Counted from the first letter of the stretch, positions 21,130 to 41,045 are shown. The stretch is 64,000 bases of DNA from Denitrovibrio sp. (GCA_002869145.1 PKTM01000019.1:1-64000), one strand, 5' to 3'. Notes: generated by a model not told the origin, from the letters alone. A program made the numbers and translations.

Positions 21130-21257
21130 GAATTAAGCTATTTAGTAAAAATAACCTTATTATATCATTTTTAATTTCTGCTATAGAGTGTCATTTTTGT
21201 TATATAGAAATAGAGATTTAAATAGTAAATATAATTGTGAATGCAATAGTAATAAGA

Positions 21258-21300
21258 ATAACGATTGTTATTTAGAAAGCATTCTAAAGATTATTCATGA
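21258..21300 (+). repeat. Dispersed double-palindrome repeat, copy 1
   Basis: ATAACGATTGTTAT (21258-21271) overlaps TTTAGAAAGCATTCTAAA (21271-21288) and is followed by ATTATTCATGAA-like bases. The same block recurs at 29,011 and 29,841 with only a few changes, and the second palindrome recurs at 41,107 next to the attachment site. Here it lies upstream of the small membrane-protein gene at 21,339. A GTTATATAGAAATA promoter-like motif is at 21,194-21,212. Confidence 0.75.
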
Positions 21301-21338
21301 ATTTAATAACGAAATTAAAAAAAAAGAGGTATGAGTAA

Positions 21339-21703
21339 ATGAGCACTGAAACAAAAAAGCAACATGAAGCTGAAATTCATGAAACAACAGAACAAGAAAA
21401 ATTCCGTTCGGGCGGAAACATATTGAAAAATTTATACTTGCTGGATTATTGTTATCTGGCTTATTCTTAGTATTCATGTTTTATAATTCAAAAGACAATA
21501 TGCGCAACACAATAAATGATGCAAAAAGCACTATGCAAAATATTGTAGAAAATGCTGGATATGGCACAAAAAGTACGTCTGAAATACAATCAGAAATTAG
21601 CCAGCATTTTAAAGACAAAAAATCGCTAAATCAGGTACTTAACATAAAGAGGGCGAATTATGAGTCAAAAAAAAGAACGTTGGCAAACATATTACATGGA
21701 TGA
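21339..21703 (+). pseudogene. Small single-pass membrane protein, frameshifted
   Basis: ATG 21339 (AGAGGT ribosome site) starts a hydrophilic stretch, MSTETKKQHEAEIHETTEQE, that runs into a stop at 21467. In the -1 frame, from about 21,400, the sequence becomes KIPFGRKHIEKFILAGLLLS, continuing into a transmembrane helix and then a coiled tail to a stop at 21701-21703. That frame has no good start codon of its own. Joining the two at the A-rich site near 21,400 gives one sensible protein of about 120 aa. Either a one-base indel broke the gene or ribosomes shift at the A run. The tail overlaps the next gene by 44 bp. Confidence 0.5.
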
Positions 21704-22055
21704 ATTAGAAGAAGAGAACCCTGATATCTGGGATATGAGTGTCGGAGATGCCTCATCACCAAGAGGGTGCCCAGTATGCAAACCCGAAGACGAAAATTGT
21801 TCTCATTCAGTCTTCGAATACAGTTATGCTGCAGAACGGTATGAGGATATAGATGATGAATTTGCTGAAAAGATAATAGAATGGTTTAGAAACCAAGAGA
21901 TTGATGACGATGAGGAGGAAGAGGGAATAAATATTAATAACATTTGCCCTACTGATTATTTTGATGATTTCAATAATCTCTATATTGAAGAGATTTGTGC
22001 AGATTACGGAACTCATGCTTCAGTATCTTACTTATTTGGATATCTAGATAAATAA
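21660..22055 (+). CDS. Acidic small protein with CPxC motif
   Basis: 131 residues, very acidic (DDDEEEEG and many D/E clusters), with SPRGCPVCKPEDENCSHSVF, a possible zinc or iron knuckle of three Cys and one His. ATG 21660 follows GAGGG. No family is recognised. It overlaps the end of the frameshifted membrane-protein gene, so the two were probably cotranscribed. The region 22,056-22,703 after it has no intact gene, only a decayed ORF and the promoter of the next gene. Confidence 0.6.
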   Translation: MSQKKERWQTYYMDELEEENPDIWDMSVGDASSPRGCPVCKPEDENCSHSVFEYSYAAERYEDIDDEFAEKIIEWFRNQEIDDDEEEEGININNICPTDYFDDFNNLYIEEICADYGTHASVSYLFGYLDK

Positions 22056-24274: not shown

Positions 24275-24506
24275 TTTCTTTTCTCCTTTTGACTATTTCG
24301 ACATTTCTTTTTGTTATTGATTGTCTTGCTATTTATATATAACAAAAATATATATCAAGGATAAATTAATTTTAAAATAAACTGGATGAATATATCTAAA
24401 TTCTATGTTCTATTACTGAAGAATAAGCTTCAAGTAGCTTTTAACTATTAAATAAATTTAATATTGAAAGACAAAAGTTCTTTTTTTTATTTTTTAAAAG
24501 TATAAA

Positions 24507-25141: not shown

Positions 25142-28100
25142 ATGATTATTAGGTACAATAAGGATAGCGAAGGAATAATAGAATATCTGAAAACAGGAAA
25201 AATGCAGGGACGAGAACAGCAGCGTGAAGAACTTGATAGACGAGTACATCTGTTGGGTGATTTGGATGTCACTGAGACCATCATAAAGGACATTAAAAAG
25301 AATAAGAGTTGGCAGGACGACGGTTACCTTCATATAACACTTAGTTTTGGCGAAGAGATGTATGAAAAACTCGGCGTGAAACCTAACGGAGATCAAGAGG
25401 ATAATGAGTTTGATATAGGCATTATGAAAAAGATCGCTGAAGAAGCAAAAAGATTTTTTTCTGCCGGCTTTAAAGTTGATGATGTTAACGTTTATGCTGA
25501 AGCTCATATCCCTCGATTGAGGTCATATAAAGATAAAACAACTAGTGAAGAGGTTAGGCGATATCCGCACATCCATATGATAATACCTCAGGTACATTTG
25601 CCCTCTGGAAATAAACTCATTCGGTGCGAAAAGACCAAGAAAGACGAAAGGGAAATGGTCGAAGCTAACGACGCTTTCAAAGAACTTATTAATATAAAAT
25701 ACGGGCTCACATCTCCCAAGACTAATCGCCGCCTATTTAACAATCGAGGTGAAATAATAGGCCGCTATAAAGAAGGAAAAGGTGACATCAAACAGAAACG
25801 ATCAGAGGCTAAAACCCGCATTAATGAAAAGATCATAAATCAGATGAAAGCTGGAAAAATCAGTTCGCAAAATGAGCTAATTAATTACCTCAGCAGACAT
25901 GAAGAAATATCTAAGGTCGAGGTTGCTAGATGGAAAGGCAAAACAAAGTTAAAAGCATACTTAGATTATAAACATGCACCCCTTGTGTTTGATGGCTATA
26001 TGCATCAAACAGAATTCTTCAATGACCCTGAAAAAGACAATATAATAGATCGTCACATAAAGGGCATCTCAAGTGACAACATAGCCGTTGCTACTTCAAA
26101 TTCTCAGCTCAAATCAGATGCTGAGTACCGAAAAATCCTCTCATCTTACTACAAAAAAAGAGGTGCTCAAGTTCGCAAACGTTACCATTCCAGCACTCCT
26201 CCAGCACAGCGCCAGCAAAAACTTAAAGAGCACCTAAAAGAGCACGAGCGCAGCCAGCTCAAAAAGTCCCTTACTCCATCTCAAGCGGATCAGTTCAAAG
26301 AAGCAGCAATAAGAGAATACGATCAGCTCGCTTCTCTCTATAAAGATATGAAGCTCCTTAACGCTTCATCACAAAAACTCTGGGATAACGCTGAGAAGCT
26401 CCGGAATGATCTTTACGGCGGAACCTATCGTTCCCCAAAAGGCAGACCCTTAAAATTAACGGCACCGCCAGCTGACGATTACGGTTCTGATCTCGTTCAA
26501 AATCTGCTAATCGGATCTGCCAATTTACTGCTCTGGACAGCCCGTTGTTTTGCTACAGATGACAAAGGAATAAAGAAAGAGCATCTTGATAATCTTTATA
26601 TCCAGATGAGGAGTATTAAGCTTAAGAAAGAGGAGCTGAAAAGAGAAATAGATAGAATCCGTTCAGAGCAGGCTCAGAGGGAGAAAGAGTCTTATGTAAG
26701 TATGCGCCAGAAACTTGAAAGAGGCGGCAGTATGACTTGCAAGAAAGACTTTAAAACAGCATGTGAGAGAGACCTTACGAAATATGAAAATGCTAAGAAA
26801 ATCGAGATGGTGAGAGACCAAGTTATCAGTATTGGGGCTGACCTTTATCAAGTCGTTGCGAAAGATAGAGAAGGGAGCCTTAAGAGATATAAAAGTCCGG
26901 TCAACGGAGCTGAGCTATATTGTGATGATTTCCTAGGCGAGCTCAAGACAATAAACCTGGATGGGAACGAGATCCTGATCGAACCGAGATCTTCAGAATA
27001 TATATATAAAATGTCAGACATGGTGCCAGTGGATAAATCCGCTTTGAAGAGATGGGATAGCAAATATGAGGAGCAGCAGGTCTGCATTAATGTAGCGTGT
27101 GAGAATGGTGATTATATCTACTTTAAAGACATAAAAGCTGATGATAATACCCAATCTGACTATATACATCTAAATGGTTTTTTAAACTTACCTTGGGATA
27201 GAACGAAAAGTAGCTGGGTTAATAACATATGCAATTTGCCGAGACTTGATCAAGGTGAGGAATATATAGAACCAGATATTCTTAAAGGTAAAAAGTTGGA
27301 GTTGCCTTCAGCCGTGGATGATCTCGAAGAGTACTTTACTCGAGCAGAAAGGTCTGCTAAATACAAACAGGCAGCACCGGAGGTTCAGGAAGAGATTAGA
27401 AAAAAGAGCCAGCTGTTTTGGGCAATTTACAGGTGCGAGATCCCCGATGAGATTTTAATGGATTATCTAATAAAGCCTAATAGATATCAAGGTACGGTGA
27501 CGTATGAAAGGCCGGATCTCGGCTATAAGATAGTTGACAGAGGCGACAGAATTGCACTTGCCGGAGAAACAGTAGATATTGAGAAACAGGTACGCCTGAT
27601 GTTTGAAATAGCACTTAAAAAAGGGTGGAAGCTGGAGTTGATACATCCGCTGCCGGAGTCGACAGATGAGTTTGCAGATGCTCTTTATAAAGTTCAAGAA
27701 GAGCTGCTTACAGAGCAAACTGATGAAATGTTTAATCTGGAAAAAGAGGCGGTGCCGGAGTTGGAAGAGGGTGTAGAGATTAAGCAGTCAAAGTGGAAAG
27801 AGAGGGGGCTAGAGAAAAATCCTGAGCGGTATAGGAATAAGAATAGTGCACAAGCTAAACTTGATAGATATGAGGAGGTTCAAAGTTTAGAGGATAATAA
27901 AAGATTCCTTAAGGTCATTAAAGAGACTCTGGATCCGCAGGTGTGCCTGGATTATGCCACTGTTAAGTATGGGCTGAATAAAGAGACGTACAAAATAAAT
28001 GGCAGGTATATTATTCATAACAATAAGAAATATAATATCGTCGACTTCTTCTCAAAGCACTGTCAGATGAGGTTTCAAGACGTAACTCCGTTGCTGAAAG

Positions 28101-28168
28101 AGATCAGCAAGGATAACTTTGTGATGCCTGAGCCTGGGGATTTTGAAATAGATCTGTCTGAGCAATAA
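25142..28168 (+). CDS. Conjugal relaxase/mobilisation protein, 1008 aa
   Basis: The N-terminal 250 residues form an HUH-type relaxase. They include GYLHITLSFGEEMYEKLG, a long helix with FFSAGFKVDDVNVYAEAHIPR, and the metal-binding histidines in RRYPHIHMIIPQVHLPSGN (about residue 143). N-terminal tyrosines (YNKD, EYLKTG) are possible nicking residues. It should nick oriT, stay bound to the 5' end and pilot the strand into a host conjugation pore. The middle (350-560) is basic coiled coil; the C-terminal 400 residues have no recognised helicase or primase motifs. The family is distant from RSF1010 MobA, and I cannot assign a MOB class with confidence. No coupling protein or pore genes are nearby. 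Confidence 0.8.
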   Translation: MIIRYNKDSEGIIEYLKTGKMQGREQQREELDRRVHLLGDLDVTETIIKDIKKNKSWQDDGYLHITLSFGEEMYEKLGVKPNGDQEDNEFDIGIMKKIAEEAKRFFSAGFKVDDVNVYAEAHIPRLRSYKDKTTSEEVRRYPHIHMIIPQVHLPSGNKLIRCEKTKKDEREMVEANDAFKELINIKYGLTSPKTNRRLFNNRGEIIGRYKEGKGDIKQKRSEAKTRINEKIINQMKAGKISSQNELINYLSRHEEISKVEVARWKGKTKLKAYLDYKHAPLVFDGYMHQTEFFNDPEKDNIIDRHIKGISSDNIAVATSNSQLKSDAEYRKILSSYYKKRGAQVRKRYHSSTPPAQRQQKLKEHLKEHERSQLKKSLTPSQADQFKEAAIREYDQLASLYKDMKLLNASSQKLWDNAEKLRNDLYGGTYRSPKGRPLKLTAPPADDYGSDLVQNLLIGSANLLLWTARCFATDDKGIKKEHLDNLYIQMRSIKLKKEELKREIDRIRSEQAQREKESYVSMRQKLERGGSMTCKKDFKTACERDLTKYENAKKIEMVRDQVISIGADLYQVVAKDREGSLKRYKSPVNGAELYCDDFLGELKTINLDGNEILIEPRSSEYIYKMSDMVPVDKSALKRWDSKYEEQQVCINVACENGDYIYFKDIKADDNTQSDYIHLNGFLNLPWDRTKSSWVNNICNLPRLDQGEEYIEPDILKGKKLELPSAVDDLEEYFTRAERSAKYKQAAPEVQEEIRKKSQLFWAIYRCEIPDEILMDYLIKPNRYQGTVTYERPDLGYKIVDRGDRIALAGETVDIEKQVRLMFEIALKKGWKLELIHPLPESTDEFADALYKVQEELLTEQTDEMFNLEKEAVPELEEGVEIKQSKWKERGLEKNPERYRNKNSAQAKLDRYEEVQSLEDNKRFLKVIKETLDPQVCLDYATVKYGLNKETYKINGRYIIHNNKKYNIVDFFSKHCQMRFQDVTPLLKEISKDNFVMPEPGDFEIDLSEQ

Positions 28169-28223: not shown

Positions 28224-28784
28224 CTAAAATTCAAATAATTTTTGTGAAGAGGCTAAAAAGTTTGAAGCTTTCATGTTGCGATCACTGTCTGTTTCAAAAA
28301 GAGTAATTGTAAATTTGGGGTCAGCTTGCTGCTTTAAATCATCGCCAATTACTTCTTTAATGTCATAAAGACAGTCGTCTTCTCCCATGATTTTAGTCAT
28401 AAGGTCTTGCTTGTGAATGTCTTTATCTAGCACATAGTCAAACTGGTCAACTGTAAAATATATATCATCGTAGTTTCCGCTATTTCTACTTATTGCAAAT
28501 TCAATAATCGCATCAGAGTATACTGTTTCAAAAATTAGGTATATTTTATTAGCCTCTACGATAAATTTGTTTTCAACTTTAATATTTTTTTCAAACTCTT
28601 CTTCTATATAAGTGATACCTTCTACTACAACAGTGTTTTCAAAACTGTTTATTTTGTCAGTGAAGCCGTCAGTGTTTTTTGAATTATACAAAGCTTTTAT
28701 TTCAGCTGCCTCGGATTCGTTTATTTCTTTTATTTCATAAACCACATATTCAGTGTTTATATAAAAATCAAAAGATTTATTCAT
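28224..28784 (-). CDS. Hypothetical acidic protein, last gene of the leftward cargo cluster
   Basis: 186 residues, acidic, alternating strands and helices (MNKSFDFYINTEYVVYEIKE, NKIYLIFETVYSDAIIEF). AAGGAGGGC lies before its ATG at 28784. It has no GPGM tail, ending in SSQKLFEF, so it is a neighbour rather than a member of the tailed set at 29.1-31.8 kb. No family is recognised. Its promoter region (28,785-29,010) contains a CCGCCT/AGGCGG hairpin at 28,863-28,880 and one copy of a structured dispersed repeat. Confidence 0.6.
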   Translation of the reverse strand: MNKSFDFYINTEYVVYEIKEINESEAAEIKALYNSKNTDGFTDKINSFENTVVVEGITYIEEEFEKNIKVENKFIVEANKIYLIFETVYSDAIIEFAISRNSGNYDDIYFTVDQFDYVLDKDIHKQDLMTKIMGEDDCLYDIKEVIGDDLKQQADPKFTITLFETDSDRNMKASNFLASSQKLFEF

Positions 28785-28882
28785 TATTCTGCCCTCCTTA
28801 ATAACTTGTATTATAAATGATATATATAAAATTCCAACAATAAAAAATTGATTTAATAGGTGCCGCCTTATTTGAGGCGGTG

Positions 28883-28931
28883 AACTCAGAAAAAATTAAG
28901 CTGCGCTATCAATAAGCGCTCGCTAGCTCGC
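28883..28931 (-). repeat. Dispersed structured repeat, copy 1 (inverted)
   Basis: The minus strand reads GCGAGCTAGCGAGCGCTTAT, then TGATAGCGCAGCTTAA and TTTTTTCTGAGTT. The same sequence in plus orientation is at 39,461-39,511 and, with a diverged left part, at 34,358-34,393. It can fold as GCGCT(TATTGAT)AGCGC. The last 15 bases also occur twice, inverted, in the oriV-like region. Confidence 0.8.
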
Positions 28932-29010
28932 AGAAAAATCCGGATTGTATAAACTATTTTTCATCTATATATCTTTCACTATTTAATTCGTGAATATAAT
29001 AAGGATAAAA

Positions 29011-29055
29011 ATAACGATTGTTATTTAGAAAATATTCTAAATATTATTCATGAAC
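29011..29055 (-). repeat. Dispersed double-palindrome repeat, copy 2
   Basis: ATAACGATTGTTAT (29011-29024) is joined to TTTAGAAAATATTCTAAA (29024-29041) and TTATTCATGAAC. It lies 3' of the tailed gene at 29,101, just beyond that gene's terminator hairpin, as does copy 3 behind the next cassette. Confidence 0.8.
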
Positions 29056-29062
29056 AAAAAAA

Positions 29063-29078
29063 GGCAGCCGAAGCTGCC
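29063..29078 (-). terminator. Terminator of the 29,101 gene
   Basis: On the minus strand GGCAGC-TTCG-GCTGCC is followed by seven T. The same hairpin follows the next gene (29,892-29,907). There a base change gives a G-U pair only in the minus-strand RNA, supporting function as a minus-strand RNA hairpin. Confidence 0.8.
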
Positions 29079-29100
29079 TGTTTGTTCCATAATCTCTGTA

Positions 29101-29679
29101 TTACATTCCAGGGCCTGAGATTTCTTCTTCATATTCTAGTCCTGCTTTTTTGTTTAGTCGCTCTCGAATGCGTTGAATGTCTGCTTCAGATTTTTCTCCA
29201 AGGTCTGTTGCGTGAACAGCTCTAGTATTAAGATTGGATAGTTTTTGAGTTAAGTTATCAATTATGTTGTCAGCCTTATTTTCATCTAGTTCTGTAGAAA
29301 ATATATATTTATTTAGTTTTGAAGAATATGCGTTTGATACTATATCATTCACTGAAATATATCTATGTCCCATCTCATCGTTTTTATCAGCAAATACACA
29401 TTTTTGGTCAGTATCAAGCACGCAAGCTTCTATATCTATATAGTATATATATCTATCACTGTCTAATGCTTCTTGAGCTGTGATATAACTCTCTGCACCT
29501 GCAAGTATTTCTACATCATTGTTTTCTGATTTGGCATAAATGAGCGTCTCCAGCGGTATTTCATCAATTATGCACGAAATATTATCAGCAATTTGATCTG
29601 CAGATATTTCTTCGTTGAAAAGATTCATTTTTTGTGTGCTGTTAGCTAATTCTTCGATTGAATATGCTGTTCTGTTCAT
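29101..29679 (-). CDS. Tailed cassette protein A (ends SGPGM)
   Basis: 192 residues, acidic. A middle segment, IPLETLIYAKSENNDVEI followed by LAGAESYITAQEAL, faintly recalls the ParB/DUF262 fold but lacks its arginine. A basic helix with AVHATDLGEKSEADIQRIRE follows, then YEEEISGPGM as the last residues. That ending is shared with proteins B and C and more loosely with D. The bodies do not resemble one another. The start has AAGGAGAATTAAG, and the leader carries a GCC-GAGA-GGC hairpin. The promoter is nearly identical to that of protein D. No signal peptide. The shared tail suggests recognition by a common partner, such as a protease, chaperone or export factor; this is inferred. Confidence 0.75.
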   Translation of the reverse strand: MNRTAYSIEELANSTQKMNLFNEEISADQIADNISCIIDEIPLETLIYAKSENNDVEILAGAESYITAQEALDSDRYIYYIDIEACVLDTDQKCVFADKNDEMGHRYISVNDIVSNAYSSKLNKYIFSTELDENKADNIIDNLTQKLSNLNTRAVHATDLGEKSEADIQRIRERLNKKAGLEYEEEISGPGM

Positions 29680-29699
29680 CTTAATTCTCCTTTGCCTCT

Positions 29700-29819
29700 C
29701 GGCTTTTTATTATTTTCTATACTTTATATATAACTAAAATATTCAGTTCCGTTCCTTTAAAATGCATATTTCTCAATATTTTATGCATTTTTTGCTGGTA
29801 TTTTTACCAGATAAAAATC
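29700..29819 (-). repeat. 120-bp duplicated promoter region, copy 1
   Basis: It matches 31,840-31,959 at 119 of 120 positions by my reading. In minus orientation it contains CTGGTAAAAATACCAG (palindrome, 29795-29810), the inverted pair AAATGCATA/TATGCATTT (29760-29790), the ATTTTAGTTATATATAAAG promoter motif (29721-29740) and the start of the leader hairpin. It drives protein A here and protein D at the other copy. Confidence 0.9.
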
Positions 29820-29840
29820 AGTGATATAATCAAAATAAAA

Positions 29841-29871
29841 ATAACGATTGTTATTTAGAAAGTATTCTAAA
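29841..29871 (-). repeat. Dispersed double-palindrome repeat, copy 3
   Basis: ATAACGATTGTTAT (29841-29854) plus TTTAGAAAGTATTCTAAA (29854-29871), then ATATTATTCATGAAC. It lies between the 3' hairpin of protein B and the promoter of protein A. Confidence 0.8.
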
Positions 29872-29891
29872 TATTATTCATGAACAAAAAA

Positions 29892-29907
29892 GGCAACCGA
29901 AGCTGCC
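29892..29907 (-). terminator. Terminator of the 29,934 gene
   Basis: The minus-strand RNA reads GGCAGC-UUCG-GUUGCC followed by U residues. The A-C mismatch seen on the plus strand is a G-U wobble in the minus RNA. Confidence 0.75.
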
Positions 29908-29933
29908 TATTTGTTCCACAGTGTCCTCTGGGC

Positions 29934-30281
29934 TTACATTCCAGGGCCTGTGGGCTCGTTATCATGCTCTCCTAAGCCAAAGCTAGTTAGAACCTCGCTT
30001 GGGTGACTTTCAAGGTATTTATAAAGAAACTGGTCTACAAATTCCTGTGGCTCACTTAGAGCTCTCTTTGCCTCTTCTGGAATTAACTGTATGTCTTTAA
30101 CATCATCATAGATGTGTAACACAAGTACAAGATTACCTCTGCTGTACTTTTCCGTGTTCTCAATAATCTTATAAAGTCTTGCGTAGCCAATGCTTATCCC
30201 GCCATTAAAGTCTGGATCAGAGTCTCTGCCTGCAATAATTTCTCCGTGTTCTTCAAAAAAAGATTTCTGTTTAAAGCTCAT
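29934..30281 (-). CDS. Tailed cassette protein B (ends TGPGM)
   Basis: 115 residues, acidic, alpha/beta (GGISIGYARLYKIIENTEKY, NLVLVLHIYDDVKDIQLIPE), with the C-terminus EHDNEPTGPGM. GAGGAGAATT precedes the ATG at 30281. Its leader has its own hairpin (GCCC...GGGC) at the place where the neighbouring leaders have GCC-GAGA-GGC: the base pairs differ but the fold is kept. No family is recognised. It is the third gene in transcription order (D, C, B, A). Codon use and AT content match the cluster. Confidence 0.7.
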   Translation of the reverse strand: MSFKQKSFFEEHGEIIAGRDSDPDFNGGISIGYARLYKIIENTEKYSRGNLVLVLHIYDDVKDIQLIPEEAKRALSEPQEFVDQFLYKYLESHPSEVLTSFGLGEHDNEPTGPGM

Positions 30282-30334
30282 TTTAATTCTCCTCGCCCTT
30301 ATTTCCCGGGCTTAATATGTTTTTGTATTCAACA

Positions 30335-30354
30335 GGGGCAGCCTCAGCCACCCC
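30335..30354 (-). terminator. Hairpin downstream of cassette C
   Basis: Minus RNA GGGGUGGC-UGAG-GCUGCCCC, with two G-U pairs. The same hairpin is found after cassette D (31,020-31,039). The trailing T-run is weak, so it may be a processing or attenuating structure rather than a full terminator. Confidence 0.6.
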
Positions 30355-30381
30355 CATTTATATTTTTTAACTTGTTAGTAT

Positions 30382-30975
30382 TTACATCCCGGGGCCGGTG
30401 GGTTCTTCTTCAGATTTAGGCTCCTCAAATTTGGGTAGCATGTCTAGTGCATACTCAATTTCATTAATGAGTTCTCTATCTTCGCAATAGTCTGAGTCTG
30501 TCCAGTCATCAATATCAATTTCAAAAATATCCGGATTAGCAGCCATTTCAGTTTTGAGTTTGTCCTCATCACCTAATATTTCGTGATAAGAGAGATACCC
30601 ACTATAATCACGACCTTGTTTCTTGCTAGCATAGTAATCATATTTCACCTCATTGATCTTTCCTGCAAGATAATCTTCAAGCGGATTTTCGCTTACATGT
30701 TTCTCTTCAAGCCGTTTCAACTCAGCTTTAAGTACTGCTCTCATAGCAACTTCAACAGACATAATTGATTTGTCCAGGTCAATCTTAAAACTGACTCCAG
30801 GTTTTAAATTTTTGTCAGCAAGTTTTTCACCGTCTTCGCAGTAGATGTGTTCATAAGTGTTGATATGTGTTTTGTAGTCACAACTAGAGAATGTATCGCC
30901 CAACTCGTGATTATCATATATATATACTTCGAACGCCCAGCACTCATACCCTTTTCTTGTTTCTAAAGTTTTCAT
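30382..30975 (-). CDS. Tailed cassette protein C (ends TGPGM)
   Basis: 197 residues, acidic in the C-terminal half. An N-terminal beta-rich part (CWAFEVYIYDNHELGDTFSS) is followed by PGVSFKIDLDKSIMSVEVAM, a helical region and EEPKSEEEPTGPGM. AAGGAGAATTAAG precedes the ATG at 30975, with the same GCC-GAGA-GGC leader hairpin as cassette A. The body has no resemblance I can see to A, B or D, while the ends do. No enzyme motifs, signal peptide or membrane helices. Confidence 0.7.
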   Translation of the reverse strand: MKTLETRKGYECWAFEVYIYDNHELGDTFSSCDYKTHINTYEHIYCEDGEKLADKNLKPGVSFKIDLDKSIMSVEVAMRAVLKAELKRLEEKHVSENPLEDYLAGKINEVKYDYYASKKQGRDYSGYLSYHEILGDEDKLKTEMAANPDIFEIDIDDWTDSDYCEDRELINEIEYALDMLPKFEEPKSEEEPTGPGM

Positions 30976-31019
30976 CTTAATTCTCCTTTGCCTCTCGGCT
31001 TTTTATTATTGTTTTTAAA

Positions 31020-31039
31020 GGGGCAGCCTCAGCCACCCC
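31020..31039 (-). terminator. Hairpin downstream of cassette D
   Basis: A repeat of the GGGGUGGC-UGAG-GCUGCCCC hairpin seen after cassette C, here followed by CUUU. It lies between the D stop and the C leader. Confidence 0.6.
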
Positions 31040-31065
31040 CTTTGTTTTTTAGCTTGTTGAGTTAT

Positions 31066-31818
31066 TTACATCCCGAGGTCTGAGATTTCTTCTTCTCGCA
31101 GCTGCTCATTAAAGAGCCTGAAAGCACCACTAAACGATCTCGCAGAAACTCCGCCTCGGCGTATCCAATAGTTATTCTCTTTGCAGTATTCACTAATTTC
31201 ATAGATTTCATAGACGTCTTCTTTGTCGTTCAGAGACATCTTTAAAGCCTTGTCAACTCTAAAGTCACTAAAAAGGTCTTTAAAATATTTTGTAGAATTA
31301 GTGTCTCGCTCATCATATTTTTTATCAGCATCTTCATCGATATTGTCATACAAACCAAGGTTTTCATAAATTTTAAAAAATGGATTTCTTTCGTCCATTT
31401 TTGTTTCGTTAAAGCGTTCTTCAACACTTTTAATTATTAGTTTGTGACCTTTTGTATCTAAGTACTTATTCATCGCATTAAGAAGTGTTTTTTTGTTTTT
31501 AAAACCTTCTACTCCTTCTGTTGTTTCAAGTGATTCATCTACAAAATCAAGATATTCAACTTTGCAAAAAACCCTGTCAATATGATCGAGAAGGATAGTG
31601 CTGTTAACTGTAAGTTTTTCATTATTTTCATGTTTTAGTTTCATAGTTAAAAGAACCCAGGGCAAATCTTTTTCAAAATAGTTGTTCATTTCGAAATCTT
31701 TAATTTCGTAAGTAATCTTCTTTCCTGCCTCTGTTGTAAGTGTGACTGTTTCAGCTGTCGCTTCTGCCTTGTTGTTTTTCTTCTCTTTTTGATTGTTGAT
31801 TACATCGTTTAAACTCAT
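31066..31818 (-). CDS. Tailed cassette protein D (ends SDLGM)
   Basis: 250 residues, first gene of the tailed cluster. A lysine-rich N-terminus (NNQKEKKNNKAEATAE) is followed by beta-rich sequence (VTLTTEAGKKITYEIKDF, WVLLTMKLKHENNEKLTV), a charged helical region and RRGGVSARSFSGAFRLFNEQ. It then ends LREEEISDLGM, a diverged form of the EEEISGPGM tail. The stop-codon context matches cassette C. AAGGAGAATC precedes the ATG at 31818, and the leader hairpin here is GCCG-AAA-CGGC, a compensated variant. It has the second copy of the 120-bp promoter. Function unknown. Confidence 0.7.
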   Translation of the reverse strand: MSLNDVINNQKEKKNNKAEATAETVTLTTEAGKKITYEIKDFEMNNYFEKDLPWVLLTMKLKHENNEKLTVNSTILLDHIDRVFCKVEYLDFVDESLETTEGVEGFKNKKTLLNAMNKYLDTKGHKLIIKSVEERFNETKMDERNPFFKIYENLGLYDNIDEDADKKYDERDTNSTKYFKDLFSDFRVDKALKMSLNDKEDVYEIYEISEYCKENNYWIRRGGVSARSFSGAFRLFNEQLREEEISDLGM

Positions 31819-31839
31819 TGTGATTCTCCTTTGCCGTTT

Positions 31840-31959
31840 CGGCTTTTTATTATTTTCTATACTTTATATATAACTAAAATATTCAGTTCCGTTCCTTTAA
31901 AATGCATATTTCTCAATATTTTATGCATTTTTTACTGGTATTTTTACCAGATAAAAATC
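31840..31959 (-). repeat. 120-bp duplicated promoter region, copy 2
   Basis: It carries the same operators and promoter as 29,700-29,819, with one base difference (T before ACTGGT instead of G). Palindromes lie at 31,900-31,930 and 31,935-31,950. It is positioned to transcribe cassette D. Confidence 0.9.
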
Positions 31960-31973
31960 GTGAATATAAACCT

Positions 31974-32016: not shown

Positions 32017-32271
32017 TTATTGTTCAGGCTTTATTTTGCAGCACTTCAGAATGAAGTCTGTAAAAGACATGTTGGCATTTCTTGCCAGTTCTTTGACTTG
32101 AGCACACTCATTCTCTGTCATTTTCAAGCTGAGTGACTTTGATCTTTTCGGGCCGTTTTTTTCAGGCCTGCCCGCTTTCGGCTTGTCTTCAAGTGTTCCA
32201 CTATTTTTCAAAATATTAAGAACTGCTTTTGTGTCGTCTGTTGTGTTGTTTGTGTTGTTTACATTTTTCAT
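32017..32271 (-). CDS. Ribbon-helix-helix protein, probable centromere-binding partner of ParA
   Basis: 84 residues. The N-terminal 35 residues are polar and disordered. GRPEKNGPKRSKSLSLKMTE then leads into an RHH-like unit with ECAQVKELARNANMSFTDFI. Small RHH proteins encoded directly after a Walker-type ParA act as ParB-equivalents in type Ib partition: they bind repeats upstream of or within the cassette and stimulate ParA ATPase. The 12-bp repeats at 32,320-32,366 lie just upstream of this gene. The assignment rests on order, size and fold signature. Confidence 0.7.
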   Translation of the reverse strand: MKNVNNTNNTTDDTKAVLNILKNSGTLEDKPKAGRPEKNGPKRSKSLSLKMTENECAQVKELARNANMSFTDFILKCCKIKPEQ

Positions 32272-32319: not shown

Positions 32320-32366
32320 CCGATACTAATCTCGATACCAATCTCGATACCAATCTCAATAAAAAT
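32320..32366 (-). repeat. 12-bp direct repeats, candidate partition site and operator
   Basis: Units CTCGATACCAAT (32331-32342 and 32343-32354) are flanked by degenerate CCGATACTAAT (32320-32330) and CTCAATAAAAAT (32355-32366). They overlap the 3' end of parA and lie about 50 bp before the RHH gene, a suitable place for its operator and for a parS-like centromere. Confidence 0.75.
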
Positions 32367-32991
32367 CGCTATTTTGTTCACTAAATAATTCACGTTTTAT
32401 TTCTCGAATTAATTGTTCCATGCAAAATTTTGCTTTTGTGTCTCCCATCTCCATTACAGTCTTATTTTGGTCTATAGATGTTGCAAAAGACTTGTAGAGC
32501 CCGATGCAGAATGGATAATGGGGCAGCCCTCTTTTCTCTAACTCTTTTTTTGCATGATGAAAGTTGCTTGATCTGCTATCTACTTTACTGAGAAGTATTT
32601 TGTAATTTACTGTTTTTCCATAGCTTTCCAGTTCTTTTATTACGTCAAGCGTCTCTTCTAAGCCTCTCTTGTCAAGACTAGAATAGTTGACAGGTATGAT
32701 TACAAGATCTGCTACAGCAATAGCCATTCTGCTCCCTGCTGTGTCTTTGCCACCTGTATCGAAGATGATTAGATTGTCTTTGTCGCTCCCTTTTTTAATC
32801 TTCTCAAAGAAATCTACCTCTTTTTCGGGAGGGAGCAGGGTGCAAGTGATTCCCATTTCTTTACCTTTGAGATACGCACTTTTTTGGCGAAGATCGCAGT
32901 CTATTAATATTGCAGACAATATTTTTGCAATATTAATTGTTATTGTTGTTTTTCCTACTCCGCCTTTCATGCTCGCTGTTGTTATTATCAT
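32356..32991 (-). CDS. parA: ParA-type partition ATPase
   Basis: 211 residues, the size of small type Ib ParA proteins without an N-terminal DNA-binding extension. It has the deviant Walker A MKGGVGKTTITINIAKIL near the N-terminus, AILIDCDLRQKSA, LIIFDTGGKD (Walker B) and IIPVNYSSLDKRGLEETL. It should drive even segregation of an autonomously replicating form, which implies the element exists at times as a plasmid. It is preceded by the 231-aa gene (20 bp gap) and followed by the RHH gene, all on the minus strand, forming one operon. Confidence 0.85.
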   Translation of the reverse strand: MIITTASMKGGVGKTTITINIAKILSAILIDCDLRQKSAYLKGKEMGITCTLLPPEKEVDFFEKIKKGSDKDNLIIFDTGGKDTAGSRMAIAVADLVIIPVNYSSLDKRGLEETLDVIKELESYGKTVNYKILLSKVDSRSSNFHHAKKELEKRGLPHYPFCIGLYKSFATSIDQNKTVMEMGDTKAKFCMEQLIREIKRELFSEQNSDFY

Positions 32992-33785: not shown

Positions 33786-33977
33786 CTATATTATAATATA
33801 ACCAATTTATATAAAAAAAACCAAGAAATAATTAACAAATAATGGGTAATTTTACCAGTAATGTTATAAGTCTTTAATAATAATGCGAATAAAAGATATA
33901 AAAAATTTCGATATATTTTATTTTATGTGGTATAATGTAACTTAATAAGTCGGCAGAGGGTAGTGCAGAGGGTAGTA

Positions 33978-34343
33978 ATGAGTAGGATAAAAAATGATAG
34001 AACACTATTAATTTTCAGAGAGTGGCAAAAAGACTTCGAATCAGTTCTAAAAAAAGACGGCACTCTTGATGCTGATAATCAAGCAGTCTTAGATTCAATC
34101 ATTTATGCAATAACTCATAAAACTATTAAATATGATTTAATTGTATACATCGCTGAACAGATTAATCTTCATAGAAAAGATGAGCTCGTTTATATGCAGC
34201 TCTCTAACGTTGATAGAGCAGCGCTACTATCTCTTAAAGAAGAATTTGAATATGTACTGAAGCATGAGCTTCAAGGCGAATTAGAAGAGATTACAGAAGA
34301 GGGTGGGGTGCTAGTACTGAGCTTCAAAGAAACCTGCGAATAG
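33978..34343 (+). CDS. Small helical hypothetical protein
   Basis: 121 residues from ATG 33978, with AGAGGGTAG upstream; the in-frame GTG at 33963 is less likely. Helical and acidic overall (DRTLLIFREWQKDFESVLKK, ELQGELEEITEEGGVLVL), no known domain. It is divergent from the partition operon. Directly after its stop comes the second copy of the structured repeat (34,358-34,393), which also lies before the phosphatase gene. Confidence 0.55.
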   Translation: MSRIKNDRTLLIFREWQKDFESVLKKDGTLDADNQAVLDSIIYAITHKTIKYDLIVYIAEQINLHRKDELVYMQLSNVDRAALLSLKEEFEYVLKHELQGELEEITEEGGVLVLSFKETCE

Positions 34344-34357
34344 CGAGTTTACGAGCT

Positions 34358-34393
34358 CTCATTGATAGCGCAGCTTAATTTTTTCTGAGTTTA
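34358..34393 (+). repeat. Dispersed structured repeat, copy 2
   Basis: CTCATTGATAGCGCAGCTTA continuing into ATTTTTTCTGAGTTTA; the left GCGAG arm is diverged here. The sequence is shared with 39,461-39,511 and, inverted, with 28,883-28,931. It lies between the 121-aa gene and the phosphatase. Confidence 0.75.
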
Positions 34394-36681: not shown

Positions 36682-37284
36682 TCAATCCAGCGGATCCTGA
36701 AAAGACACCACAATTTCGTTTGCAATAGTACCATTCGGATTTTCGTAAACTCTTATAATATCAACGTTATACTGTGGAATTTTGTCGTATGCACATACTG
36801 AGTTTATGTCTGTTAAGACATCTTTCCCATCATAATTAAGAGCTACGATAACATCTCTTACGAGAACGTCGGGGATATTGATTTCATGAGACTTGATAGT
36901 AACCTTTTTTAGATCAAATTCGCTTCCATCAGGGGTGTCCATTATGTAATTCAGGCTTGAGGCTGAATATAAAGTTGATAACAGGATGTAATACCCGGTT
37001 TCAACGATTTTTGTTCTTGATTTTGTTTCATATGATATGGGAGCGTCTGCAATTCCTGTATCTTGTTTCTCGTTCCATTTTGTTTCAGGGCCTAGAATGT
37101 GCATAAGCTTATTCTCAAGTATCTTATCTAGTAGTTGATTAAAAGTATCTGATTCAGTGTTTTTTGTCTCTATCAGTTCAAGAATAATGTCTTTATCAGA
37201 ATCAGGGACCGCTACAAGTATATACTCGCCATATGTATCTGGTAAGATTGAAAATACATATTCGCTTTTGTCTTCTGCACTCAT
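36682..37284 (-). CDS. Hypothetical acidic protein
   Basis: 200 residues, acidic, with regular beta-strand and helix alternation (YGEYILVAVPDSDKDIILEL, NIPDVLVRDVIVALNYDGKD), ending VVSFQDPLD. AGAAGAGGTATTTC precedes the ATG at 37284. It resembles the tailed cassette proteins in size, charge and orientation but has a different ending. That ending is also found as a decayed copy 160 bp downstream. No family is recognised; no signal peptide or membrane helix. Confidence 0.6.
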   Translation of the reverse strand: MSAEDKSEYVFSILPDTYGEYILVAVPDSDKDIILELIETKNTESDTFNQLLDKILENKLMHILGPETKWNEKQDTGIADAPISYETKSRTKIVETGYYILLSTLYSASSLNYIMDTPDGSEFDLKKVTIKSHEINIPDVLVRDVIVALNYDGKDVLTDINSVCAYDKIPQYNVDIIRVYENPNGTIANEIVVSFQDPLD

Positions 37285-39460: not shown

Positions 39461-39511
39461 GCGAGCTAGCGAGCGCTCATTGATAGCGCAGCTTAATTTT
39501 TTCTGAGTTTA
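39461..39511 (+). repeat. Dispersed structured repeat, copy 3
   Basis: GCGAGCTAGCGAGCGCTCAT then TGATAGCGCAGCTTAATTTT and TTCTGAGTTTA. It overlaps the stop codon of the integrase on the other strand. The rest of 39,090-39,460 has no gene; it shows a direct repeat of GAAAAACGTTCGC (about 39,405 and 39,434) and nothing else I can name. Confidence 0.8.
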
Positions 39512-40912
39512 TCTGAGCTCTAATTTCATCTCGAAAGGGTTCCCATATTCTTTGATTTGACGAGTAAGTTCATCATTAGATGCGTGCGTATAAATGTCTG
39601 TAATAAAAGAACTACTATGCCCTAAATCAGCTTGTACATTTACAAGATTAAATCCATTTATAAAGTATGACCAGGTTGCGAAAGAATGACGAAATTTGTG
39701 CGGAGAAAATTGTTTAACCCTGTTTTTTGCTTCAAGACGAGACTCAATATTAAGTTTATCTGCTTCTTCTGACAGCGTCTTTTTTATCTCATAAAAAATA
39801 TTTTTCGGAAAATCACTAAAGACATAATCTCCATATTTTAGATTTTTATATTCTAGATATTCACCCAATTTTTGCTTCAAGACTGAAGTCATTTTTACAT
39901 GTCTAACAGTAGTGCCTTTTGAGCAAAGTTTTACTGTTCCCGCTTTAAAGTTAACATCTTCTACTTTAAGATTTCTGCCACATTGAGTTCTTGCTCCTGC
40001 GTGACATAATAAAAGAAAATATGCTTGTGCTTTCAATCTTGCATTTTTTCTATTAAATATATTTGTATATTCTATAAATGCTTTAAATTCGTCTGGATAA
40101 AGAAAAAACGGATCCGGATCTGGAAAACTCTCTCGCTTAATGCCGAGTGCTGGATTAACGTCTAGCGAGATATCTTTATCTTCTTCAAGCCATTTAAAAA
40201 AACATGATACATAAGAAATATATTTGTTTTTTGTGTTACTAGAGATAGTTGGCCCATTTTTAGCAAATTGAGCTCTGTCTTCAGCATAATCTCTTAAAAA
40301 TACTTTAATATCTGATTTAGAAATAATACCTATCTCATCATTTTTAAAATACTCAAAAAAAGCATCATATATTGGCAATTCATGCTTGTATTGCTTCTCT
40401 CTATTTTTTATTTGGTGGTCTCTAAATTCTTTCTCAAAGCTACTAACAGTAAGAAGAAGTTTCTCTTCATTTGCTAATTTTCTTTGTTTTAGCGGGTTTT
40501 TTATACTTATAAGTATATCATCAAAGTAACTAATCATTTTAGACATGCAGCGAATAAGTTCTTTTTGATTTTGAGATCTCGGAAGTTCAAACTTTTCATC
40601 AGAGACCAGCCATATCCTTTTTTTATTAACTGTAGAGAGTTTCTGTATAATAGCTCTCTCTGGCCTTTTTTCACTGCAAATAGAGCTCATCGTTCTAAAT
40701 AAACAGAATTCATCAATGACTCTGCTTCTGCCGCCGCAATGTGGGCATTTATAATAGAGCCCAAGACTATCATCTTTAGTGTTTTTAATGAGGTTTCTTT
40801 CTTTGCAACTAGAACAATGAAAATAAGGTCCGTCATCGTCATAAAAAGGATCTTTGAATTTATTATCTTTGCCGCATTTTATGCATTTGTAACGATATTC
40901 AGTGCTAGCCAT
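39509..40912 (-). CDS. int: Tyrosine recombinase (integrase) with N-terminal zinc ribbons
   Basis: 467 residues from the ATG at 40912 (AGGAAAAGAG upstream); a start 10 codons earlier has no ribosome site. The C-terminal catalytic domain shows the tyrosine recombinase residues: HAGARTQCGRNLKVEDV (Arg I), PHKFRHSFATW (His-x-x-Arg), ADLGHSSSFITDIYTHAS (His/Trp position and nucleophile Tyr). A SAM-like core-binding domain precedes it (YAEDRAQFAKNGP). The N-terminal 75 residues hold four CxxC pairs in two zinc-ribbon-like units (CIKCG...CSSC, CPHCG), unusual for integrases and possibly an extra DNA-binding part. It lies 250 bp from the tRNA-Leu attachment site and surely integrates and excises this element. 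Confidence 0.9.
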   Translation of the reverse strand: MASTEYRYKCIKCGKDNKFKDPFYDDDGPYFHCSSCKERNLIKNTKDDSLGLYYKCPHCGGRSRVIDEFCLFRTMSSICSEKRPERAIIQKLSTVNKKRIWLVSDEKFELPRSQNQKELIRCMSKMISYFDDILISIKNPLKQRKLANEEKLLLTVSSFEKEFRDHQIKNREKQYKHELPIYDAFFEYFKNDEIGIISKSDIKVFLRDYAEDRAQFAKNGPTISSNTKNKYISYVSCFFKWLEEDKDISLDVNPALGIKRESFPDPDPFFLYPDEFKAFIEYTNIFNRKNARLKAQAYFLLLCHAGARTQCGRNLKVEDVNFKAGTVKLCSKGTTVRHVKMTSVLKQKLGEYLEYKNLKYGDYVFSDFPKNIFYEIKKTLSEEADKLNIESRLEAKNRVKQFSPHKFRHSFATWSYFINGFNLVNVQADLGHSSSFITDIYTHASNDELTRQIKEYGNPFEMKLELR

Positions 40913-41045
40913 TTCTCTTTTCCTGTATTGTCGATTGATCATTAAATAAGTATAATATATTACAATTTGCGAAGAGTTACGTCAATAGCTTCCAAATCAT
41001 TTGTAACGATTTTGTAACACTTTTATTTCAAAGTTTGGAAATAAA

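Follow-up and report, generated by a model that had tools for sequence, protein, structure and literature searches.

Unrelated acidic orphan genes set between shared, mosaic joints and ending in a common tail on a probably integrated mobilizable element

To our knowledge, the assembly of operons from ready-made joints is better described for T4-like phages than for plasmids, and the PeSL cassettes of T4-like phages were reportedly treated by Arbiol in 2010 and by Comeau in 2014. In PMC4503421, PeSLs are the promoter early stem loops of T4-like phages, which are proposed to mediate gene shuffling. The four-gene array analyzed here, found in a 64-kb window (the whole stretch of DNA studied, 64,000 nt), resembles that description, with a conserved promoter and a stem-loop or terminator between unrelated orphan genes (here the repeat families D1, D4, D10, and D14, with their hairpins and terminators), and in anatomy it appears closest to PeSL joints. 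It differs from them in its carrier, which is a probably integrated mobilizable plasmid with replication, mobilization, and partition genes and not a T4-like phage, and in the extent of the joint, which takes in the last 5-9 codons and so gives unrelated proteins a common C-terminal peptide. It differs also in that only mosaicism inside one array is seen, since the searches returned no related array that would display exchange.

Other described systems share single traits with the locus. Anti-defence islands in plasmid leading regions are presented, in the extract of PMC11541004, as clusters of small, often uncharacterised genes near relaxase genes. The array is likewise a cluster of small genes near a relaxase on a mobilizable element, and such an island could plausibly be its functional setting; however, no anti-defence family was matched here, and the shared C-terminal tail is absent from the description in that extract. 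Such islands are also encoded on the T-strand beside oriT and have Frpo-type promoters; the D1 promoter block of the array folds, on both strands, as two simple palindromes. Integron cassettes and shufflons also arrange unrelated coding segments with common flanks in an array, but no paired RYYYAAC/GTTRRRY motifs of an attC site were seen by eye in the 3′ blocks, and none of the four genes contains any of the 49-nt repeats of the element, one of which is next to a tyrosine recombinase. The C-terminal tip of SSB is an acidic stretch of the DDDIPF type. The array proteins similarly finish with acidic residues and then a short terminal peptide, but the peptide is GPGM and not IPF, and it is carried by unrelated proteins, whereas SSB is one hub. 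We know of no described system with an (E)EE-(S/T)GPGM tail, and a literature search on "GPGM" and "C-terminal tail" returned one unrelated paper and no described system with the tail.

The array consists of four consecutive minus-strand genes between positions 29101 and 31818, which encode proteins of 250, 197, 115, and 192 aa in the direction of transcription (Table 1). The first-pass annotation had listed these four ORFs and their endings, and an ORF check of the window returned them as written. The interval that it had assigned to the array (28224-31818) does contain the four tail genes, but it also takes in a fifth gene (28224-28784) with neither tail nor leader. When all ORF ends in the window were examined (30 codons or longer), only those of the four genes finished in GM or had GPG among their last five residues. 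The GPGM ending described as common to all four is present in 29101, 29934, and 30382, but the fourth tail, that of 31066, ends in DLGM, which shows tolerance in the tail. The DNA word for GPGM and the stop, GGNCCNGGNATGTRA, has exactly three exact copies in the 2.88-Mb genome, and these are the stops of 29101, 29934, and 30382. By composition-free arithmetic, approximately 0.7 exact copies would be expected by chance genome-wide and approximately 0.001 per 3.6-kb stretch. Elsewhere in the genome, sites with one mismatch were not more numerous than in the reversed control, and the tail is unique to this locus within the genome.

Table 1. Coordinates of the array genes, their joints, and the adjoining genes; positions are those of the window.
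Feature	Coordinates	Strand	Description
Gene 31066	31066-31818	-	Acidic orphan, 250 aa, pI 5.0; end EEEISDLGM; opens the putative three-gene unit
Gene 30382	30382-30975	-	Acidic orphan, 197 aa, pI 4.5; end EEEPTGPGM
Gene 29934	29934-30281	-	Acidic orphan, 115 aa, pI 4.7; end DNEPTGPGM
Gene 29101	29101-29679	-	Acidic orphan, 192 aa, pI 4.3; end EEEISGPGM; putative second transcription unit
Gene 28224	28224-28784	-	Fifth acidic orphan, 186 aa; end KLFEF; without tail or leader
D1 promoter/operator block	31839-31969	-	Before 31066; palindromes CTGGTA-TACCAG and AAATGCATA-TATGCATTT
D1 block, second copy	29699-29829	-	Before 29101
Leader of 31066	31819-31846	-	Hairpin GCCG-AAA-CGGC and AAAGGAGAAT ribosome-binding site
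Leader of 30382	30976-31010	-	Hairpin GCC-GAGA-GGC and AAAGGAGAAT
Leader of 29934	30282-30315	-	Hairpin GCCC-(9)-GGGC and GAGGAGAAT
Leader of 29101	29680-29706	-	Hairpin GCC-GAGA-GGC and AAAGGAGAAT
Inter-gene hairpin after 31066	31019-31050	-	GGGGUGGC-UGAG-GCUGCCCC, no T run; family D14
Inter-gene hairpin after 30382	30334-30365	-	GGGGUGGC-UGAG-GCUGCCCC class; family D14
Intrinsic terminator after 29934	29891-29908	-	AGGCAGC-TTCG-GTTGCCT and T run
Intrinsic terminator after 29101	29062-29079	-	AGGCAGC-TTCG-GCTGCCT and T run
ParA-type partition ATPase	32356-32991	-	Directly upstream of the array
Small NikA-like gene	32017-32271		Adjoins the ParA gene; match E = 2e-6

The bodies of the four proteins are unrelated in sequence. 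When the last 10 residues were trimmed, all body pairs scored within the range of shuffled sequences in local alignments (P = 0.18-0.79), in agreement with the first-pass annotation, which had noticed no visible similarity in the bodies. With the tail kept, the pair 29934/30382 was significant against shuffles (P = 0.005). With body likeness at chance level, a full-length paralogous family is not supported. Profile, structure-sequence, and tblastn searches gave no convincing relative of any body in Pfam, PHROGs, PADLOC, PDB sequences, plasmids, phages, IMG/VR, or genomes of the phylum, although not every protein was searched in every collection and 29934 was left out of the phages and the phylum relatives. 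The 50 same-phylum relatives, searched with 31066, 30382, and 29101, yielded no body relative. Neither the four genes nor the fifth had a Pfam match above the curated cut-off, and PADLOC, whose models cover defence and not anti-defence, gave no match. The strongest match found was weak (helical residues 137-179 of 29101 to phrog_2380, annotated as of unknown function, E = 1e-4), and 31066 had a marginal match in the PDB (3nym, E = 0.03). Single-sequence AlphaFold models of 29934 and 30382 reached pLDDT values of 41 and 37, respectively, which are too poor for fold comparison.

The DNA between the bodies is shared. Repeat families were found at the leaders (D1 and D4), at the gene ends (D3), and at the 3′ hairpins (D10 and D14). 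The likeness that had been reported around the stops, leaders, and hairpins is thus real, except that there are two unrelated kinds of 3′ hairpin, GGGGUGGC-UGAG-GCUGCCCC after 31066 and 30382 and AGGCAGC-UUCG-GYUGCCU with a T run after 29934 and 29101. The two D1 copies, the only full copies in the genome, are 96% identical over 131 nt. Folding of D1 exceeds that of shuffles on both strands (at 29690-29840, the DNA fold has z = -2.9), and the fold consists of two simple palindromes. A small G+C hairpin lies immediately 5′ of AGGAGAAT in all four genes, built from different bases except that 30382 and 29101 have the same one, and 40 nt of the 30382 leader (30971-31010) are identical to the 29101 leader. 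An Rfam search gave no match. This layout is consistent with two transcription units, the first running from the upstream D1 block through 31066, 30382, and 29934 to the terminator after 29934, and the second from the other D1 block through 29101 to its own terminator; genes of the same unit would then be co-expressed.

The shared joints are also mosaic. The promoter block of 29101 resembles that of 31066, its leader end is instead the one identical to 30382, and its terminator region resembles that of 29934 (families D2 and D10). The joint pieces of 29101 thus match those of 31066, 30382, and 29934, whereas its body resembles none of them. The tails themselves give conflicting groupings: columns 10, 11, and 13 of the last 30 nt unite 31066 with 29101, whereas columns 21 and 24, together with the 3′ DNA, unite 31066 with 30382. 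One tree cannot yield both unless sites changed in parallel; otherwise, the pieces must have recombined. We regard this conflict as the strongest sign that gene ends have recombined, to which it points from one locus only. The module shuffling proposed by the first-pass annotation is supported, at this one locus, by unrelated middles combined with mosaic shared ends.

The reading that we favor, tentatively and with a probability of approximately 0.45, is a modular operon in which the joints permit exchange of bodies and the tail is also kept as a docking motif. Accessory genes would form two neighboring transcription units on an integrated, mobilizable, IncQ-like plasmid, with unrelated acidic orphan bodies placed between standard joints. 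Each joint would comprise the last 5-9 codons, the stop, the 3′ hairpin, the leader hairpin, and the ribosome-binding site up to the next ATG, and the joints at unit starts would additionally hold the promoter/operator block. Bodies would be swapped when joints undergo homologous recombination or gene conversion, and the expression signals and the tail would stay in place. The tail is probably, although with weak support, also kept at the protein level, as a short, acidic motif at the C-terminus by which the proteins would dock to a single partner, in the manner of SSB C-termini. Against exchange stands the fact that this is a single locus and that the searches yielded no related array; hence, no swap between elements is visible.

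A serious although unlikely alternative is that the tail has no function of its own and that a recombination or gene-conversion joint reaches a few codons into the genes, the tail being carried along with the terminator or the inter-gene hairpin. This would fit the DNA likeness that, among genes of one hairpin class, continues past the stop as far as the 3′ hairpin, the loss of likeness within approximately 30-36 nt upstream of the stop, the one degenerate tail (DLGM), and the failure of the scans to find the tail anywhere else. It fits less well with the pair 30382 and 29934, the 3′ hairpins of which belong to different classes: here the likeness ends at the stop, yet seven residues (EPTGPGM) are identical through four nucleotide differences, all of them synonymous and in third positions. 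The chance of such an all-third-position outcome is approximately 0.01 if positions are taken as equal, but this concerns few sites in a single pair out of six, and across all six pairs third positions account for about half of the tail differences. Thus, the signal of protein-level selection on the tail is suggestive only.

The tail may have one shared receptor, for which the support is this synonymous-only change between the 30382 and 29934 tails. We consider it doubtful that the tail is a common docking tag in the full sense, with one plasmid or host hub recognizing (E)EE-x-(S/T)-GPGM and new bodies gaining the tag through tail-hairpin-leader joints. No receptor candidate was identified for the tail, which counts against docking. 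If the tail is a docking tag, then it would be a simple natural plug of unrelated proteins into one machine, and a peptide of nine residues could serve to retrieve the partner. If the tail merely belongs to a recombination joint, then the array would still show how plasmids may put orphan genes together into operons whose expression signals are ready-made.

Descent of the four genes from old tandem duplicates, with bodies that diverged past recognition and ends that were conserved or homogenised, would explain why the genes lie side by side, encode small acidic proteins (pI 4.3-5.0), and share leaders and ends. It is nevertheless improbable, given lengths that range from 115 to 250 aa, body likeness that never rises above shuffles, and noncoding joints up to 96% identical beside bodies that are unlike.

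A role of the tail codons at the level of RNA or translation, in which they would either pair with the next leader hairpin and so couple translation or slow termination at PGM-stop, appears quite improbable. Hairpins do lie on both sides of each joint, and the third positions of the tail are not the same where another gene comes next (CTC/CCC GGG) as where a terminator does (CCT GGA). However, predicted pairing between tail and leader did not exceed that of randomly chosen synonymous codons (fractions 0.23 and 0.33), and the tail is kept equally in 29934 and 29101, both of which end at terminators.

The tail DNA pattern was absent outside this locus from viral contigs, 84,980 species, and 60 genomes, with the limits that the pattern used for the 84,980-species scan catches only the 29101 and 30382 tails, missing tails diverged like the other two, and that the searched collections may leave out the genome carrying the array. 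This absence indicates that the system is not widespread in that exact form. The neighborhood of a second related recombinase, on contig C23, contained no listed gene with the tail ending. When the relaxase of the element was used to find related elements, one distant copy was obtained in a genome of the same genus (G001; 46% over the N-terminal 385 residues) and none in the species scan. The 40 kb around the G001 relaxase contained no such array, so that no GPGM cluster is known from a related element, the comparison covering this one distant relative.

The relaxase itself (25142-28168, plus strand) is of the NikB/LPD7 type, with 30-31% identity to LPD7-domain relaxases, with MobC, on enterobacterial plasmids. 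The plus strand of the element also encodes an AAA protein of the helicase type and a protein resembling RepB primase, the latter with a match just under the Pfam cut-off. On its upstream side, the array is followed by the NikA-like gene, the product of which is probably a ribbon-helix-helix protein, by the ParA ATPase gene, and then by a gene without identification. These matches suggest an IncQ-like replication set combined with IncP/I-type (NikB-like) mobilization. The contig is 223 kb long and carries chromosomal genes; therefore, the element is probably integrated in the chromosome. Neither the VirB4 family (PF03135) nor T4CP (PF02534) was matched in the genome (99.4% complete), and the element thus probably needs a helper for transfer. 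Dot/Icm effectors have glutamate-rich C-terminal signals, and a tail acting as a translocation signal for type IV secretion or a conjugation channel would suit acidic C-termini encoded beside a relaxase, but the lack of both families makes a secretion role unlikely here (a helper channel from another plasmid could still serve), weakens the earlier suggestion of a secretion factor as receptor, and leaves this explanation very improbable.

Several other repeats were observed in the element. A 49-nt repeat beginning with AACTCAGAAAAAATTAAGCTGCGCTATCAATRAG has four copies (28883-28931, plus strand; 34343-34391 and 39461-39509, minus strand; and G000 contig C7:8498-8546, plus strand), which are 86-98% identical to the first and occur in no other genome of the 60 searched. 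One copy directly adjoins the stop codon of a gene for a tyrosine recombinase (39509-40942), and the repeats may therefore be attachment sites that split the element into exchangeable segments. A 68-nt repeat (81-94% identity; 21241-21308, 28994-29061, and 29824-29891) contains the palindromes TTTAGAA-TTCTAAA and AATAAC-GATT-GTTATT and is possibly an operator or partition site. After its copy at 21241-21308, the ORF at 21340-21650 breaks early and another frame continues, membrane-protein-like by eye; this seems to be a frameshifted gene or a sequencing error. An AT-rich motif around TTTTNGTTATATAKAAATA lies upstream of several genes on both strands (21193, 24329-24351, 24501, 29723-29742, 31863-31882, and 33789-33813), which suggests one promoter type common to genes of the element. 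Strongly acidic proteins without the tail (pI 4.05-4.30), with no Pfam match above the cut-off, are encoded at 21660-22055, 28224-28784, and 36682-37284, and the element seems to be enriched in small acidic proteins.
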